IMG/VR virus record: IMGVR_UViG_3300017763_000085
Coordinates: 1-33,352 of that record
Length of the DNA stretch: 33,352 nt
Origin: a virus
Direction: 5' to 3' (one strand)
This document shows positions 23,748 through 31,302 of the stretch, piece by piece; the first letter of the stretch is position 1, and each line of letters begins with the position of its first letter. Below the pieces are notes generated by a model. The model searched no databases, had not been told where the DNA came from, and saw only the letters and a program-made list of their open reading frames with translations. The position numbers and the translations under genes were made by a program.

Positions 23748-25424
23748 ATGGCCAAGTTATTTGGATTCTCGATAGAGGATAATGATGAAAAGAAACCCAA
23801 GGGTGCTGTGGTTTCCCCCGTTCCTCAAAACAATGAGGACGGGGTTGACCATTATTTAACCAGTGGGTTTTTTGGGTCTTATGTTGACATTGAAGGTGTA
23901 TATAGATCAGAGTATGATCTAATTAGAAGATATAGAGATATGGCACTGCATCCAGAAGTGGATGGTGCAATTGAAGATATTGTCAATGAAGCAATTGTAA
24001 GCGATACCAACGACAGTCCAGTTGAGATTGAACTTTCAAACGTCAATGTCACTGATGGTCTAAAGAAAAAAATCAGAGAAGAATTTAAGCATATTCTTGA
24101 ATTGCTAGACTTTGATAAAAAGTGTCATGAGATCTACAGGAACTGGTACGTAGATGGAAGACTTTATTATCATAAAGTAATAGACTTAAAGAATCCTCAA
24201 GATGGTATTCAAGAGTTAAGATATATTGATGCGTTAAAAATGAAGTTTGTCCGTCAAGCGGGCAAAAAGAATACTGATAGAAATCAAGTAAGATTTAATC
24301 CAAACGGAGAAAAGGATCCTAAAGATACTGGATTCCCAGAAATTCAAGAATATTTTGTTTACAACCCAAAGTCTGCACAGGTAGGAAATCTTGCTGCTAG
24401 AGGTGGTGGAAACTCTGCAACTGAGGGTGTAAAATTCTCAAAAGATTCTATTGCATATTGCACCTCTGGTTTAGTAGATCGTAATAAAAATCTTACACTC
24501 TCATATCTTCACAAAGCAATCAAGGCACTCAATCAACTGAGAATGATTGAAGATTCGCTGGTTATCTATAGAATGTCACGCGCTCCTGAGCGTAGAATTT
24601 TCTATATTGATGTTGGTAATCTTCCTAAGATGAAAGCAGAGCAATATCTGCGTGATGTTATGATGCGTTATCGTAATAAACTAGTTTATGATGCTTCGAC
24701 AGGAGAGATCAGAGACGATAAGAAGCATATGAGTATGCTTGAGGATTTCTGGTTGCCACGTCGCGAAGGTGGTAGAGGAACTGAGATCACAACTCTTCCA
24801 GGTGGACAAAATCTTGGAGAACTTTCAGATATCAAGTACTTCCAAGAAAAACTATATCGCGCACTAAATGTACCATCATCTAGAATTGGTGGACAAGAGG
24901 GATTCAATCTTGGTCGTTCTTCTGAAATATTAAGAGATGAGTTGAAGTTTACTAAGTTTGTTGGAAGATTGAGAAAGAGATTCTCAAATATGTTCAACGA
25001 CATGTTGAGAACTCAATTACTTCTCAAAAATATTGTCAGTATTGAAGATTGGGAAACTATCTCTGAGCATGTTCAATACGACTTCCTGTATGACAACCAC
25101 TTCTCTGAACTGAAAGATGCAGAGTTGATGACTGAGAGACTTAATATTGCTGCCACTGCAGAACCTTACATTGGTAAGTATTACTCTCAAGATTACGTTC
25201 GCCGTAAGATTCTTCGTCAGACAGATGAAGAAATTATCGAACAGGATAAGTTGATCAAAAAAGAAATTTCGGCAGGAATTATACCTGATCCAAATGCACC
25301 AATTGATCCCGCAACTGGAGAACCACTTCCCACTAATGGAAATGATTTAGGAGCACCAATTGATGAACCAGATCTTGATGGTGCAAAAGATGGTGGAAGT
25401 ACTGAGGCACCAGAGATAGTTTAA
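23748..25424 (+). CDS. 20: Portal vertex protein gp20
   Basis: 558 residues; T4 gp20 has 524. The dodecameric portal nucleates the prohead, docks the gp17 motor and later the neck. Diagnostic segments are RSEYDLIRRYRDMALHPEVD (residues about 52-71), the following AIEDIVNEAIV, YRMSRAPERRIFYIDVGNLP (about 273-292) and LPGGQNLGELSDIKYFQEKL (about 350-369). The proline/acid-rich C-terminus (after about residue 505) is variable in the family. The next gene starts 2 nt after the stop (TAATTATG), so it is likely read from the same transcript even though it is not a T4 core gene. Confidence 0.95.
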   Translation: MAKLFGFSIEDNDEKKPKGAVVSPVPQNNEDGVDHYLTSGFFGSYVDIEGVYRSEYDLIRRYRDMALHPEVDGAIEDIVNEAIVSDTNDSPVEIELSNVNVTDGLKKKIREEFKHILELLDFDKKCHEIYRNWYVDGRLYYHKVIDLKNPQDGIQELRYIDALKMKFVRQAGKKNTDRNQVRFNPNGEKDPKDTGFPEIQEYFVYNPKSAQVGNLAARGGGNSATEGVKFSKDSIAYCTSGLVDRNKNLTLSYLHKAIKALNQLRMIEDSLVIYRMSRAPERRIFYIDVGNLPKMKAEQYLRDVMMRYRNKLVYDASTGEIRDDKKHMSMLEDFWLPRREGGRGTEITTLPGGQNLGELSDIKYFQEKLYRALNVPSSRIGGQEGFNLGRSSEILRDELKFTKFVGRLRKRFSNMFNDMLRTQLLLKNIVSIEDWETISEHVQYDFLYDNHFSELKDAELMTERLNIAATAEPYIGKYYSQDYVRRKILRQTDEEIIEQDKLIKKEISAGIIPDPNAPIDPATGEPLPTNGNDLGAPIDEPDLDGAKDGGSTEAPEIV

Positions 25425-25426
25425 TT

Positions 25427-26086
25427 ATGAATTCGTATCATAGATTTTTAGACATTAGTGACTATGTTCCTAATGTCGATACATCGCAGTACGATGTTGA
25501 TAACATTCATTGGCCTGAATTTCATAAAACATTCGATTTGAAGGAATTGGGTAATAATAAGATTGAACCCTGGTTAAACAGTATGGGGTTTACTTCTACC
25601 TGGATAGAATTTTTTTACACTCCTCCAGGAGAAGACGGAGTAATACACTCTGATAATGTATGGTATGCTGATTGGGCAAAATTAATCTTTCAATTTGGTG
25701 CTAAAGGAAGCACTATGAGATTTTGGGAATCAGATACTGTTTTAAGAATGAGTACTAGTGCTGAGCAGGTTAGTACCGATATACCAGAAAGAAGTGAATA
25801 TAACGTAGGTGACAGAACTAATGATCACTATCATGGACAAGTTCTTGTAACAAGAGAAGAGTTTGCAGATCTAAAGTATGAGGTAGAGGTTGGAACTTGT
25901 AGTCTCGTTAATGTTGGTCCTCTACACAGTTCACATAATCCAACAAAAGAAGGTAGATTTTCTTTAACTATTGCTTTGATGGATAATACTACAAAGTATG
26001 AGAAGAGAATTTTATGGGATGAAGCACTAATAGCACTTAAACCTTACATAGTTGATTCTTCAATAGACCTTTGCGTCTCAAGATGA
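25427..26086 (+). CDS. 2-oxoglutarate/Fe(II) oxygenase-like protein
   Basis: 219 residues. A plausible double-stranded beta-helix iron site is visible: H74-S-D76 (HSDN, after FYTPPGEDGVI), then a distal His at H167 or H170 (NVGPLHSSHNPT) and R177 (EGRFSLTIAL) for 2-oxoglutarate binding. This HxD...H...R arrangement and the hydrophobic strand after the Arg fit the 2OG-Fe(II) hydroxylase superfamily, members of which are frequent in cyanophages. Substrate is unknown. It follows the portal gene by 2 nt on the + strand. Its last 50 nt overlap, tail to tail, the 3' end of the minus-strand radical SAM gene. It could act with that cassette on a shared product, but this is only contextual. Confidence 0.65.
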   Translation: MNSYHRFLDISDYVPNVDTSQYDVDNIHWPEFHKTFDLKELGNNKIEPWLNSMGFTSTWIEFFYTPPGEDGVIHSDNVWYADWAKLIFQFGAKGSTMRFWESDTVLRMSTSAEQVSTDIPERSEYNVGDRTNDHYHGQVLVTREEFADLKYEVEVGTCSLVNVGPLHSSHNPTKEGRFSLTIALMDNTTKYEKRILWDEALIALKPYIVDSSIDLCVSR

Positions 26087-27788
26087 ATACTGTATGTGGA
26101 TCATTCCTATCAAATTCTTTAAATTCAGTGTCTACAATATAATTGTCATCTCCACATTTAAGTTTATATGGATACTTAGATTCTTCATCAAAGATAAATG
26201 CTCTTTGAAGGTTTAGTGTATCTTCATCAACCAAATCTAACTCAGATAAAATTTTAAATATACTTTCCTTATTCCTAAACATAAAAGCAAAACTTGCTGC
26301 ATGCAGAGTATGTCCATGCTTGCCTTGATCTAGAATCTTGCCAGTCTTCATGTAATGGGATACTGATTTTTGAATTTCACCATAATGCTCTCCAATTACG
26401 CCAGTATCATTTCTTATATAATCAAATAGTTTGTCATAAAAAATTCTATACCCCACTCCTAAACTATTCAAATGTTTGGCAACAAGTTGAGTATATCCAG
26501 CAATGTGAAATTGAATGACTAACCACCCGTAAAGATATGCTTCAATAAGTTCATCATTAGTCATTGTATTAGTTTCTGAAATCAATTCAATGATTTCTTT
26601 AATGTCATAATCTTCTTTGCTAAATGACATATAATCTTCTGCTTTTATAGTTTTAATACCATAGACTTCCCTTGACAAAGAACTATTCAGATCAGTGTCG
26701 CCAAACATTTGGCAGAACCAAACATCAATAGAATCATGCTGACCACATTGAAGAATTTGTGCAAATCCGTCTTTCCAAGAATCTAAGGTTTCTTCTGGAA
26801 GTCCAAGTATTAGTTCAGTGTATGTTTTAACGCCATATTTTTTACTCTTCTCAATCTGTTCTGATATTTTATTGATACTCATATTCTTTCTCTTAATAGA
26901 TTTAAGAGTTGGTTCATTCATACTTTGAACACTAAGAGTCACACCTCTACTAATATCACCTAGAATTTGAGCGATCTCAAAAATAACTTCTGTTGAGTTC
27001 TTTGAATACTGAACATTAATTGCTTCTAGTTTACCTCGATCTGCTGCAGCACGAAATAGTTTGGCAATCTCAAGATCCCGCTCTTTAAACATACCAAAGT
27101 TTGCATCGGCATTAAATATAAATCCAACATTATTTCTTTCTGCCCAATTAATGTCTTGCTCAACTCTTTCTAAACCAAAGTGTTTAACTTTTTGATATGT
27201 CATCCCACCCCAGTCACAATAAGTACATCTATGAGGACATCCCCTATTTGTCTCCACGGTCATGGACCAAAGAACATCAGGATTCTCTTCAACAATTTTA
27301 TTAAAAATACCTAATTGATATGGGCTCGGAAAATCAAGATCTTCAATTCTTTCTTTGCGATATATCCTATCATAAGGTTCACTCATAATTATCTTCCTAA
27401 GAAAATCTAAGAATGATTGTTCTCCTTCAGATATAATAATGCAGTCAATAAAATCATACTTTGCAAGTTTCTCGGTTGCTTGAGGTCCACCAAATTCTAT
27501 AACACAGTACGGATACCTTTCTTTTATAAGTTTAGCAACATGTAGATTATATTGTTCATTCCAAATATATGTACTGAATGCACATACTTTTGGATCTTCT
27601 AGTCTGTTTACTAACTCTTCAGGATCTTCTCTTTTAAATATGAGATCCTTTAAATGAAAACCACTAGAAACGTCACCATATTGTAGACAATATGCCCAGA
27701 GACAACCGACACTGTAAGGCAACCAATACGTGTCTTCCTTTCTAACTTCTACCGCATACTGCGGTTGGAACATGTATAGGTTTCTCAT
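26037..27788 (-). CDS. B12-binding-type radical SAM protein, downstream copy
   Basis: 583 residues. The N-terminal part (about 1-140) looks like a Rossmann-type B12-binding domain: YWLPYSVGCLWAY, then AFSTYIWNEQ, EFGGPQ and the terminal SEGE. The DxHxxG cobalt-ligand motif is not evident. The radical SAM core follows with the [4Fe-4S] triad C184, C188, C191 (RGCPHRCTYC) and a later VTLSVQSMNEPTLKSIKRKN segment. The C-terminal region (about 380-583) is shared with the upstream paralogue and has no assigned role. Its ATG overlaps the paralogue's TGA by 4 nt (ATGA), which indicates translational coupling. Chemistry could be methylation, epimerisation or another radical reaction on a glycan, lipid or peptide. 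Substrate is unknown. Confidence 0.82.
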   Translation of the reverse strand: MRNLYMFQPQYAVEVRKEDTYWLPYSVGCLWAYCLQYGDVSSGFHLKDLIFKREDPEELVNRLEDPKVCAFSTYIWNEQYNLHVAKLIKERYPYCVIEFGGPQATEKLAKYDFIDCIIISEGEQSFLDFLRKIIMSEPYDRIYRKERIEDLDFPSPYQLGIFNKIVEENPDVLWSMTVETNRGCPHRCTYCDWGGMTYQKVKHFGLERVEQDINWAERNNVGFIFNADANFGMFKERDLEIAKLFRAAADRGKLEAINVQYSKNSTEVIFEIAQILGDISRGVTLSVQSMNEPTLKSIKRKNMSINKISEQIEKSKKYGVKTYTELILGLPEETLDSWKDGFAQILQCGQHDSIDVWFCQMFGDTDLNSSLSREVYGIKTIKAEDYMSFSKEDYDIKEIIELISETNTMTNDELIEAYLYGWLVIQFHIAGYTQLVAKHLNSLGVGYRIFYDKLFDYIRNDTGVIGEHYGEIQKSVSHYMKTGKILDQGKHGHTLHAASFAFMFRNKESIFKILSELDLVDEDTLNLQRAFIFDEESKYPYKLKCGDDNYIVDTEFKEFDRNDPHTVFILRRKGLLKNQLCKV

Positions 27789-29515
27789 AAAAATTTAACT
27801 TTATTCTTCAAAAGATTTTTTCTTTTTAGTGTCCAGATATCATTACGGTCTTCTTCTAGTCTAGCATTAGTTATCAAATAATCATCCACAATTTTAGGAT
27901 AGTTATCCTCTGGGTTATATATGTAGTTTCTCTGAAGTTGATATATGTCTTCAGGTATCTCCATTCCACATCCCTCCTTTGCAAAGTATATTGCCAGATC
28001 TTTATTTGACCAAAAGAAGTCAAAGTCTGTACCCATACTAAGTTCAAGCGTATGACCAGTATCTTTGCTGGATATAATTTTCCCCGAAGTTAGATATTCA
28101 GTTATCCTTTCTTTTAATTGTCTAAAGTAATTGCCAAATATAGTTTTATCGTTATTTACATGTAAGTATAAGTTATCATAGAATTTACGATAACTTATGT
28201 CAAATGTTCTATGAAGATAATTTGATAATACCTCAGAATAACCGTTGATGTGAAATTGAATTATTAACCAAGAATACAAATATGCTTCAATCATTTGTTC
28301 AGTTGACATTGAGTTTGTCTTATTAACAATTTCAACAATCTCCTTTACAGTATCCTTTTTGTTTGTAAAAGATACATAATCTTCTGCATTAACTACTGTA
28401 ATACCATACTTATCTCTATTCATATTTAATTCAGTATTACCAAATACTTGACAAAACCAAACATCAATACTGTCTTGCCCATGATCAAGTAGAGTACAAA
28501 TTCCTGTTTTCCAAGACTCTAGTGTTTCTTCTGGTAATCCTAAGATCAGTTCTGTATATACATTGAGATTTCTATCTCTTGCCTTCTTTACAAATTCTGC
28601 ATTTTTTACATTGTTCTGTCTTTTGATTGCACGTAGTGTAGGACCATTCATTGACTGAACACTCATACTAACCCCACGCCGATCATACGGACCAAGTGCC
28701 TCACTAATATCAAAGACAACATCAGTTGCATTCTTTGTATATTGAACTGTTAGATCATCAATAATTGCATCTGGATGATCCGCCGCTTTTCTCAACATCT
28801 TTGCAATTTTTAAATCGCGTTCAGCAAAAATTCCAAAATTAGCATCAGCAAGCATCAAAAATCCAACACGATTTGTGGACATCCAGTTAATATCTTTCTC
28901 TACTTGATCAACATCAAATTTTTTTATTTTCTTCATCCATGTTCCCCAATCACAAAAAGTGCAATGGTGTGGACATCCCCTAGTGGTCTCAACTAAAGTT
29001 GCCCAAACATATTCTGGATATTTACTCACAAGATCATCAAAGACTCCAGAAGTGTATGGACTAGTATAATGAAGTTCTTCTAGTTGAACTCGTTCATATA
29101 TTGATTGTATTGGTTTTGAATTTTTTACTCTATCAAGTAGATCTACAAAATCTCTCTCACCCTCACCAAGAATAACACAATCAACATAATCCAATTCAAC
29201 TAATTTTCTAGTAGTTTGAGGTCCACCAAATTCTATAATGCAATTTGGATATTTGCGTTTAATTTCTTGTGCTAACTTTAAATTGTATTGTTCGTTCCAA
29301 ATATATGTACTAAATGCACAAACGTCTGGATCTTTTATTACTTTAAGGACATCTTCAATACTATCTCTTTTAAAGATAAGTCCACCTAATTTATAACCAT
29401 CTACGTTATCCTTTACATAACTCCATAAACATCCTATGGCATAGGGTAACCAATAATTCTTTACATCTTTAATTATAATCTCGTGTTGTGGTTGGAACAG
29501 ATACAGGGTTTTCAT
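27785..29515 (-). CDS. B12-binding-type radical SAM protein, upstream copy
   Basis: I chose the ATG at 29515 (minus strand) because the product then begins MKTLYLFQPQ, matching the paralogue's MRNLYMFQPQ. An earlier ATG at 29548 would add 11 residues. The protein is 576 residues with C181, C185, C188 (RGCPHHCTFC). It has a B12-binding-like N-terminus (YWLPYAIGCLWSY, EFGGPQ, LGEGE) and the same C-terminal region as the next gene, ending LKRKNLLKNK where the paralogue has LRRKGLLKNQ. The two are collinear over their full length, so they arose by duplication and have diverged. Its 5' end overlaps the glycosyltransferase 3' end by 47 nt. It is probably a partner or alternative-specificity enzyme to the downstream copy. 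Confidence 0.82.
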   Translation of the reverse strand: MKTLYLFQPQHEIIIKDVKNYWLPYAIGCLWSYVKDNVDGYKLGGLIFKRDSIEDVLKVIKDPDVCAFSTYIWNEQYNLKLAQEIKRKYPNCIIEFGGPQTTRKLVELDYVDCVILGEGERDFVDLLDRVKNSKPIQSIYERVQLEELHYTSPYTSGVFDDLVSKYPEYVWATLVETTRGCPHHCTFCDWGTWMKKIKKFDVDQVEKDINWMSTNRVGFLMLADANFGIFAERDLKIAKMLRKAADHPDAIIDDLTVQYTKNATDVVFDISEALGPYDRRGVSMSVQSMNGPTLRAIKRQNNVKNAEFVKKARDRNLNVYTELILGLPEETLESWKTGICTLLDHGQDSIDVWFCQVFGNTELNMNRDKYGITVVNAEDYVSFTNKKDTVKEIVEIVNKTNSMSTEQMIEAYLYSWLIIQFHINGYSEVLSNYLHRTFDISYRKFYDNLYLHVNNDKTIFGNYFRQLKERITEYLTSGKIISSKDTGHTLELSMGTDFDFFWSNKDLAIYFAKEGCGMEIPEDIYQLQRNYIYNPEDNYPKIVDDYLITNARLEEDRNDIWTLKRKNLLKNKVKFL

Positions 29516-30407
29516 GGTATGCGTTTCCAACTTTATTTGCTTCTTCATAGAAATATTTATCCGACCATCTTGACGTGTCTCTTTGCATCAGAATATCGTT
29601 ATCCTTTCCAAATGTAAATAACTCATCTAAAGAAAATTTATCTGAGTCATTTCTCCACCATTCATGATATGCCTCTATACATTTTACAAAACTAATTTTT
29701 GGTTCCCATTGCAATTCACCATATGGTCCTTGATGACTTATACCTGCAAGATATGGATTTATTGGAATTATTGGAATCGAATATGATTTACCTGCTTGGT
29801 TTATATAATAATCTGGACCCCCAGAGGTATTTGAATAATCCTTATCATCATGTATACCAGATTCTCTATTCAAGTAAATTGCATTTGCTATAGTATAGTC
29901 AAATTTAAATTTATCATCGCGATAATGTAGACTAACTAATTTATCAACATATGATCTATGTAGAAGTGAAGCACCTAAAGAATATTCTGGTTGTGTTGGA
30001 TGTAAGTAGAATGGAATTATATCAGTAGTTTCAAATCCAAGTTGAATACAATCCCAGTCATAGGGAAGTCTGTTAATAAATTCATCCCAATTAAATTTAC
30101 ATTTTGGAAGTAGAGACAAATCATAATCATCTTCCATCAATATTAAGTATGGATCATCTGTGGTTCTCATCCACTCGTCCATAAATTCAAATAGTTGGGA
30201 ACCGTATAAATTTATCCAATGTGACGTTGAGGGTCCATAGTTACCATCTAAACGATCTAGAAACTCTTGCGGAACTTGCTTAGGAAAAGATGGCATGTTA
30301 ATCCGTTCATATGAAATTCCCATAGATTTAAACTGAGATTCCATATATTCTTTACGGTCTTTTTTTCTATCTACATTTGTATAATAAACAGTGGGTAAGT
30401 TTAACAT
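29469..30407 (-). CDS. GT25-like glycosyltransferase
   Basis: 312 residues. The N-terminus TVYYTNVDRKKDRKEYMESQ, then GISYERINMPSF, matches the opening of glycosyltransferase family 25 (LPS/collagen-type): a strand, N-x-D-R, D-R, and an amphipathic helix before the acceptor-side loop. TSHWINLYGS (61-70) corresponds to the conserved serine/histidine loop. LILMEDDYDL (88-97) supplies the acidic EDD motif that binds metal and nucleotide-sugar. There is no signal peptide or membrane segment, so it acts in the cytoplasm. It is the first gene of the minus-strand cassette and overlaps the following radical SAM gene. Donor and acceptor are unknown; host LPS-like glycan or a virion protein are candidates. 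Confidence 0.75.
   Translation of the reverse strand: MLNLPTVYYTNVDRKKDRKEYMESQFKSMGISYERINMPSFPKQVPQEFLDRLDGNYGPSTSHWINLYGSQLFEFMDEWMRTTDDPYLILMEDDYDLSLLPKCKFNWDEFINRLPYDWDCIQLGFETTDIIPFYLHPTQPEYSLGASLLHRSYVDKLVSLHYRDDKFKFDYTIANAIYLNRESGIHDDKDYSNTSGGPDYYINQAGKSYSIPIIPINPYLAGISHQGPYGELQWEPKISFVKCIEAYHEWWRNDSDKFSLDELFTFGKDNDILMQRDTSRWSDKYFYEEANKVGNAYHENPVSVPTTTRDYN
29554..29560 (-). promoter_or_regulatory. Possible minus-strand late promoter inside the glycosyltransferase gene
   Basis: On the minus strand this reads ATAAATA, 39 nt before the chosen start of the upstream radical SAM gene. Initiation about 7 nt downstream would leave a leader of roughly 30 nt and would exclude the earlier ATG. 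The site lies within codons for D-K-Y in the glycosyltransferase, so chance is possible. Confidence 0.3.
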
Positions 30408-30433
30408 CTAAATAACTAGGTATTTCTATTTAA
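30408..30433. promoter_or_regulatory. Face-to-face late promoter boxes between divergent genes
   Basis: The 34-nt gap between the glycosyltransferase start (minus) and the small acidic ORF (plus) holds CTAAATA on + at 30408-30414 and TTAAATA on minus at 30427-30433. With initiation about 7 nt downstream of each box, both start sites would fall near 30420. The + gene also has a strong AAGGAGA ribosome site at 30432-30438, which overlaps the minus box. Confidence 0.4.
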
Positions 30434-30441
30434 GGAGAACA

Positions 30442-30612
30442 ATGGATCAAGATCTTTTGGATATGATCATCAGCGACGAGTCTTCATCTAACGTCTCTGA
30501 TAAAATTAAAGAAATTCTTTATACAAAATCTGCTGGAAAAGTAGAGGGTATGAGACCTGAAATCAATAATAGCATGCTTAGCGTAGATTCGGAAGACTCT
30601 GACGAAGAGTGA
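30442..30612 (+). CDS. Small acidic protein, possible gp67-like prohead core protein
   Basis: 56 residues, start ATG 30442 with AAGGAGA 4 nt upstream. The sequence begins MDQDLLDMIISDESSS, has a short amphipathic basic middle (DKIKEILYTKSAGK) and ends in a strongly acidic tail (SVDSEDSDEE). T4 carries gene 67 (prohead core protein Pip, acidic C-terminus) between genes 20 and 21, so position, small size and acidic tail favour an analogous role. There is no alignment strong enough to call it homologous. A strong RBS and flanking late boxes argue that it is a real, well-expressed gene. Confidence 0.6.
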   Translation: MDQDLLDMIISDESSSNVSDKIKEILYTKSAGKVEGMRPEINNSMLSVDSEDSDEE

Positions 30613-30648: not shown

Positions 30649-31302
30649 ATGAAACTCATAAGGGAAGAAATTGAGAAGGTAGAAGTTCTCACTGAAACTG
30701 TTAATGGTAAAAAGAACATGTTCATTAAGGGCGTGTTTCTTCAAAGTGAAATGGTCAACCGTAATGGGCGGATGTACCCCTTTCCAATTATGGAAAGAGA
30801 AGTGAAAAGATATACCAAAGACTATGTTGATAAGGGCAGAGCTCTTGGTGAACTTGGACATCCTGATGGTCCCACGGTAAACCTCGATAGAGTTTCTCAT
30901 AAAATTACTGAACTAAGACAGAACGGTAATAACTTTATTGGTAAAGCACAGATTCTTCATACCCCAATGGGTAAAATTGCAGAGGCACTCCTTAAAGATG
31001 GAGTAACCCTTGGTGTTTCTTCGCGTGGCATTGGATCTCTAAGAGATAATGCAAAATCTGGTTATAAAGAAGTTGGTGAAGATTTCATGTTAGCAACTGC
31101 TGCTGATATTGTTGCAGATCCATCTGCACCTGATGCTTTTGTTCAGGGAATCATGGAAGGTAAAGAATGGGTTTGGGATGGTGGAGTTCTACGCGAACAT
31201 CTTGCAAGACAAACTCGTCAAAGGATTGAAGCTGCTTCAGCAAGCAGAGTTTTAGAAGAGAAGAAGTTGGGTTTATTTGACGACTTCTTAAATTCTCTTT
31301 GA
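30649..31302 (+). CDS. 21: Prohead core protein protease gp21
   Basis: 217 residues, close to T4 gp21 (212). It is the serine protease of the phage prohead/herpesvirus assemblin-type fold that digests the scaffold and trims capsid proteins before packaging. Visible catalytic elements are H71 in GELGHPDGPTVNLDRVSH and the nucleophile in LGVSSRGIGS (S124 or S125). The opening strand FIKGVFLQSEMVNRNGRMYP is typical. The preference of T4 gp21 for [L/I]-x-E sites is matched in the gp23 start (LNE) and in the small basic head-like protein at 17558-18007 (VYE). An exact late promoter lies upstream; gene 22 follows. Confidence 0.93.
   Translation: MKLIREEIEKVEVLTETVNGKKNMFIKGVFLQSEMVNRNGRMYPFPIMEREVKRYTKDYVDKGRALGELGHPDGPTVNLDRVSHKITELRQNGNNFIGKAQILHTPMGKIAEALLKDGVTLGVSSRGIGSLRDNAKSGYKEVGEDFMLATAADIVADPSAPDAFVQGIMEGKEWVWDGGVLREHLARQTRQRIEAASASRVLEEKKLGLFDDFLNSL

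Follow-up and report, generated by a model that had tools for sequence, protein, structure and literature searches.

A radical SAM, oxygenase, and glycosyltransferase cassette among the head genes of uncultured cyanophages has a constant and an exchangeable arm

Why would a cyanophage carry a set of enzyme genes in the middle of its head genes, and what might these enzymes modify? The question is raised by a four-gene cassette at positions 25,427 to 30,407 of IMG/VR virus record IMGVR_UViG_3300017763_000085, of which we analyzed 33,352 nt (here, the window) containing a T4-like head/tail module. The cassette lies between the portal gene gp20 and the prohead protease gene gp21. It starts, 2 bp past gp20, with a gene for a 219-aa 2-oxoglutarate (2OG)-Fe(II)-oxygenase-like protein (25427..26086, plus strand). 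On the minus strand follow genes for two paralogous radical S-adenosylmethionine (SAM) proteins, referred to as pos2 (26037..27788; 583 aa) and pos1 (27785..29548; 587 aa as called, although homologues suggest a start at Met12 at 29515, giving 576 aa), and a gene for a 312-aa GT25-like glycosyltransferase (GT; 29469..30407). The initial annotation of this DNA proposed that the four enzymes may form a modification pathway for a virion protein, a phage-made small molecule, or the host surface glycan.

The cassette is nearly clade-specific and absent from isolates. In the IMG/VR data, which are metagenomic fragments, pos1 was found at 61 loci, 54 of which are flanked by the portal and/or protease gene, with pos1 always divergent from the head genes; the remainder lie in other contexts (L056, L057, and L059 to L062) or on a short fragment (L058). 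The oxygenase gene was likewise found at 61 loci, each adjoining gp20 or truncated, and in all 58 that extend far enough pos2 is adjacent. The cassette thus recurs as a unit, with unchanged site and orientation across dozens of contigs, and the oxygenase was never seen without its radical SAM neighbor; both observations support the single functional unit that the initial annotation read from the overlapping genes. The competing picture of singly scattered homologues is ruled out by these counts for the oxygenase and the radical SAM pair, while it applies in part to the GT family, with its arrays elsewhere. Among 50,697 GenBank phage records, pos1 had two remote matches (21-27% identity) and no close relative, and the oxygenase had none; GT relatives with ~27-36% identity are present in GenBank cyanophages at other loci. 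With few exceptions, phages whose gp20 is more than ~78% identical carry the cassette and those with lower identity lack it. On the gp20 tree, with 24 of 112 gp20 contigs too short for scoring, cassette presence requires 2 changes, compared to 29.5 with shuffled labels, and is confined to one main clade and one small clade. Because two long carriers (246 kb and 149 kb) hold psbA/psbD-type genes, we consider the carriers to be cyanophages. Together, recurrence at one site and the clade pattern indicate that uncultured cyanophages inherit the cassette as a trait and that it is not a scattered set. In the literature covered, from which subscription papers were mostly absent, we found no description of it; the nearest are T4-like marine genomes with multiple radical SAM genes (PMC5332604).

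As judged from pairwise identities, the cassette consists of a constant arm (oxygenase and pos2), which tracks the phage backbone, and a variable arm (pos1 and GT; 27785..30407, minus strand), which is exchanged. Identities correlate with those of gp20 for gp21 (Spearman coefficient, 0.81), the oxygenase (0.86), and pos2 (0.87), poorly for pos1 (0.36), and not at all for the GT (0.01), while the coefficient for pos1 against the GT is 0.60. Variable-arm proteins are only 49-57% identical between phages that match at 99-100% on both sides. For instance, L026 and L044 share 99-100% identity across most of gp21-gp23 and oxygenase-gp20 and 60-70% in a block of ~2.8 kb containing the GT gene and pos1, with 90-98% over pos2; for the pairs L006/L026 and L017/L033, the divergent blocks are centered on pos1. 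The window and L036 have a nucleotide identity of 0.80-0.92 over gp20-pos2 and gp21 and of 0.55-0.65 between edges near 27.9 and 30.3-30.4 kb. Conversely, the arm is common to L036 and L044 (pos1, 96%; GT, 91%), whose backbones differ (gp20, 89%). At a 70% identity threshold, pos1 forms seven allele classes in 31 contigs and the GT four, compared to two for pos2 and one each for gp20 and the oxygenase. We considered fast divergence instead of exchange, and this is ruled out by alleles common to different backbones and by the sharp block edges. The median ratios of nonsynonymous to synonymous substitution rates are low (pos2, 0.06; pos1, 0.11; GT, 0.16; oxygenase, 0.16), indicating that all cassette genes are under purifying selection; together with the gene order kept in dozens of contigs, these values also rule out that the cassette is a chance or annotation artifact. 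The swapping of the variable arm while the neighboring head proteins remain unchanged suggests that the enzymes vary a decoration instead of following a changing neighbor protein.

Several lines of evidence assign the radical SAM proteins to a class. They match PF04055 with 57 bits (cutoff, 29.5), have the radical SAM fold with its TIM-barrel core, and contain the CxxxCxxC [4Fe-4S] motif with cysteines invariant in 19 sequences; C184xxxC188xxC191 and W76 of pos2 are invariant among homologues, and pos1, which is 48% identical to pos2, retains CxxxCxxC and W84. As to the label "B12-binding-type" of the initial annotation, Pfam scores for B12 binding (30.8 and 20.8 bits) are under the 32.1-bit cutoff, but the predicted fold covers that domain, as seen with Foldseek. 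The best NCBIfam model is KedN5 (NF033712), a methylcobalamin-dependent C-methyltransferase family, with 172 and 147 bits, so far under the curated cutoff of 700 that the phage proteins are relatives outside the family as curated. Searched against the PDB, a profile of the 19 homologues matched TokK (E value, 4e-97) and CysS (6e-53), spanning TokK residues 22-507 and thereby the class 1 cobalamin-dependent layout of an N-terminal Rossmann cobalamin domain, a lower-face Trp, and a C-terminal domain. The predicted structure of pos2 (predicted local distance difference test score [pLDDT], 85.6) matched TokK over its full length (7kdx; E value, 9e-44; template modeling [TM] score, 0.84) and CysS (9n1b; 7e-31; TM score, 0.77), with a large drop to the next match. 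Trp76 of TokK and Trp75 of CysS fill the lower face of the cobalamin (PMC12846815, PMC13331322), and this alignment column contains the invariant Trp of the phage family; based on our reading of the profile alignment, Trp188 and Trp206 of CysS also have invariant Trp counterparts. By profile, motif, and predicted structure, the assignment of the phage proteins to the TokK/CysS-type cobalamin-dependent C-methyltransferases is well supported. Their chemistry would then be that of TokK and CysS and their substrate a different one. In a tree of the radical SAM proteins, pos1 and pos2 each form a group of their own (support, 94 and 83), indicating that the pair is an old duplication. In some loci (L023 and L024, and in part L022 and L025), the cassette has three radical SAM genes, the additional one being located upstream of the GT gene. 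In a genome-contig scan for a bacterial donor with two short patterns, the only match was a Ruminococcaceae metagenome-assembled genome (37% identity); this gut bacterium has about nine TokK-like radical SAM genes arrayed in tandem (L064; contig DCTF01000073.1). Four contigs classed as viral (L059 to L062) may be of bacterial origin or come from an unusual phage; within 53 kb, one of them (L059) has 14 matches to radical SAM proteins, adjoining an amidinotransferase-like gene.

For the other two enzymes, the evidence is weaker. The GT25-like label lies under the Pfam threshold (PF01755, Glyco_transf_25; 14.4 bits against a cutoff of 24, with weak matches in 8 of 18 members), and we base it on PHROG 2835 "glucosyltransferase" (E value, 1.8e-28), which all 18 members match; an MEDDYD motif is invariant, and a profile search of the PDB gave nothing significant. 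Similarly, no Pfam, PHROG, or NCBIfam match names the oxygenase, there is no TET/JBP match, and its PDB profile search gave nothing significant. The 2OG-oxygenase label is suggested by motif and fold: H74-x-D76, H167, and R177, invariant in 18 homologues, fit the iron triad and 2OG-binding Arg of 2OG-Fe(II) dioxygenases, and for the predicted model (pLDDT, 57), all 50 VIA-align matches listed are 2OG dioxygenases (Z, 6.2-6.8), while Foldseek alone gave weak matches (E value, ~0.01).

The initial annotation also suggested that the cassette is active during assembly, and a motif on the cassette strand supports late expression. The cyanophage late promoter has been described as NATAAATA (PMC2984593). 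Upstream of the GT gene, the window has a weak late-promoter-like TTAAATA (30427..30433, minus strand), where relatives have GATAAATA. All 22 loci tested have ATAAATA or CTAAATA at their first cassette gene, with 2.6 expected from shuffles. As a calibration, these contigs have the motif ahead of gp20 in 26/26 and ahead of gp21 in 14/17 cases; it precedes the internal gene pos2 in 1/29. Across the whole window, the ATAAATA count is not above chance, and only its placement exceeds chance; the sites from a scan for sigma-70 promoters did not outnumber those in shuffles.

In our assessment, there is about an even chance that the cassette is a late-expressed phage-encoded module making an allele-typed methylated and glycosylated decoration on an exposed target at the surface of the virion or of the infected cell. 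The enzyme families support the modification chemistry proposed initially, and we infer the single pathway and its target. Based on the TokK/CysS-type class, the radical SAM pair would be expected to use two SAM per cycle, methylate a corrinoid, and pass a methyl radical from it to an unactivated carbon; from fold and family, the oxygenase would hydroxylate a C-H bond, and the GT25-like enzyme would add a sugar. Since Synechococcus makes pseudocobalamin (PMC4850488), a corrinoid would be at hand, and the module would link infection to the host corrinoid supply. The constant arm would provide a shared modification and the variable arm an allele-specific one, which would be replaced by recombination between near-identical phages and kept changing by diversifying selection on an exposed glycoconjugate. 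We prefer a surface glycoconjugate as the target because the exchange pattern is that of typing systems, and weakly prefer the virion over the host envelope because of late transcription and the site amid head genes. It is possible, if on balance doubtful, that the cassette constitutes a phage "serotype" system with a constant core of TokK-type methyltransferase and oxygenase and an exchangeable arm of methyltransferase and GT; near-isogenic phages would then have chemically different C-methylated, glycosylated virion surfaces made by B12 radical chemistry. TokK/CysS-type enzymes are known from antibiotic pathways; in this marine phage clade, a tandem pair of them is inherited together with the head genes, and the motif associates it with late transcription. 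With its constant and variable arms, the cassette preserves a natural record of selection for diversity, which opens the question to testing.

Several observations weigh against a decoration module. The substrate-gating Trp271 of CysS is not conserved in the phage family, and the substrates of TokK and CysS are pantetheine-linked small molecules and not glycans or proteins. Model confidence for the oxygenase is low. The window's own promoter motif is degenerate, and the ATAAATA before pos1 (29554..29560, minus strand, inside the GT gene), in GT-bearing loci, overlaps a conserved Asp-Lys-Tyr, perhaps partly reflecting coding constraint, and is therefore not independent evidence. The oxygenase or the GT is missing from some carriers, so that neither is needed for every cassette version. 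Finally, metagenomic contigs could be chimeric; yet, independent assemblies contain the same alleles.

Among other explanations, we regard as rather unlikely that the cassette alters the host surface glycan late in infection, as a lytic analogue of serotype conversion that could limit superinfection or re-adsorption of progeny. GT25-like enzymes are of the lipopolysaccharide type, cyanophage GT25 arrays adjoin aminotransferase-, amidinotransferase-, and NDP (nucleoside diphosphate)-sugar-dehydrogenase-like genes, and the constant and variable parts resemble serotype conversion modules, in which gtrA/gtrB are constant and gtr is type-specific. Moreover, pelagimyophage GTs have been interpreted as altering host glycans (PMC7029224). 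However, late expression in a lytic phage leaves little time, the cassette has neither a flippase nor a lipid-linked GT, and it lies among head genes and not tail fiber genes. Direct C-methylation and hydroxylation of a peptide or virion protein, as in polytheonamide-type ribosomally synthesized and posttranslationally modified peptides (RiPPs) or the glutamine methylation of methyl-coenzyme M reductase, appears improbable. Such pathways may hold B12 radical SAM pairs together with a 2OG oxygenase, and protein hydroxylases are among the structural neighbors of the oxygenase, but the scores with RiPP-type models are far lower than with KedN5, there is no evident precursor peptide, and the adjacent head proteins do not vary along with the swapped enzymes.

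The allele exchange would also be favored by an arms race with restriction if the cassette served hypermodification of phage DNA, with the radical SAM proteins methylating, the oxygenase hydroxylating a methyl base, and the GT glycosylating. Pairs of an oxygenase and a GT occur in DNA hypermodification. Nevertheless, we judge this quite improbable: the promoter is of the late and not the early type, the oxygenase does not match TET/JBP, and in six long, possibly incomplete carrier contigs (one of 246 kb), there is no gene for a DNA C5-methylase or a thymidylate-synthase-fold hydroxymethylase. Least likely, in our view, are auxiliary metabolic genes of the ordinary kind, directed at a small molecule of the host. 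TokK and CysS do make secondary metabolites and bacterial arrays also hold TokK-like enzymes, but the cassette lacks carrier, synthetase, and precursor genes, its site and late promoter point to an assembly-stage role, and allele swapping would be odd for housekeeping.

The flanking genes place the cassette in a T4-like cyanomyovirus: the window contains a gp18-gp23 head/tail module with cyanophage homologues, relatives have psbA/psbD-type genes, and the window DNA matches 304 phage records, mostly of Synechococcus phages. gp20 (23748..25424, plus strand; Portal_T4, PF07230, E value, 1.4e-193) precedes the cassette; it is followed by a small head-region gene (30442..30612, plus strand; PHROG 14164, E value, 8.9e-20) and gp21 (30649..31302, plus strand; Peptidase_S77, PF03420, E value, 2e-37). 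Coordinates and strands of the open reading frames (ORFs) agree exactly with the initial annotation, as do its gene overlaps, which measure 50 bp for the convergent oxygenase and pos2 genes, 4 bp (ATGA) for pos1/pos2, and 80 bp for GT/pos1 with pos1 as called; Pfam backs gp20, gp21, and two Radical_SAM domains. That these are the only minus-strand genes is correct for long minus-strand ORFs not antisense to a plus-strand gene, and GC skew is negative across ~26.0-29.5 kb, i.e., over the minus-strand cassette genes. T4 was used there as the comparison for this interval, for which isolated cyanophages fit better: S-SCSM1 and S-SM2 have 2-3 small genes and nothing else, and the window keeps one of this kind (PHROG 14164) despite the cassette. 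The gp20-gp21 interval may accept insertions in general: in five cassette-free relatives (L212, L214, L248, L269, and L274), the small gene is separated from gp21 by ~2 kb of other sequence. A phage outside the main carrier clade has a single radical SAM gene (L216:9651-11321; 556 aa) in the gp20 interval, without oxygenase or GT. Two psbA-bearing carriers without GT and oxygenase at the cassette site have a repeat-rich, structural-looking ORF (518-641 aa) and a 106-aa ORF from the small gene to gp21 (L040:4101-5974 and L053:3732-5974).

Compared to known systems, the radical SAM proteins resemble TokK and CysS in full-length fold, three-domain layout, CxxxCxxC, lower-face Trp, and the equivalents of Trp188/Trp206 of CysS but differ in lacking the gate Trp271, in forming tandem pairs, and in having no antibiotic cluster. 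GT25-like genes are also found in IMG/VR arrays and in cyanophage S-SCSM2R, in the latter beside 2OG oxygenases, an aminotransferase, an amidinotransferase, and a radical SAM protein; these clusters lie elsewhere in the genome, no TokK-type enzymes were seen in them, and GTs of isolates are at most ~36% identical to the cassette GT. The S-SCSM2R cluster (L279; 229.6-234.6 kb) has several 2OG oxygenases and one radical SAM protein, and the arrays (L170 to L203) have 4-6 tandem GT25-like genes beside the aminotransferase-, amidinotransferase-, and NDP-sugar-dehydrogenase-like genes named above, with a tryptophan-halogenase-like gene in L192. By analogy, constant genes combined with an exchangeable type-specific enzyme recall the gtr serotype-conversion modules of temperate phages, whereas the cassette has no gtrA/gtrB-like genes, consists of other enzymes, and belongs to a lytic phage. 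Finally, the hyperplastic region g15-g18 of cyanomyoviruses likewise has accessory genes within a structural module (PMC2984593), while the cassette lies at g20-g21, on the opposite strand, and is conserved in composition.

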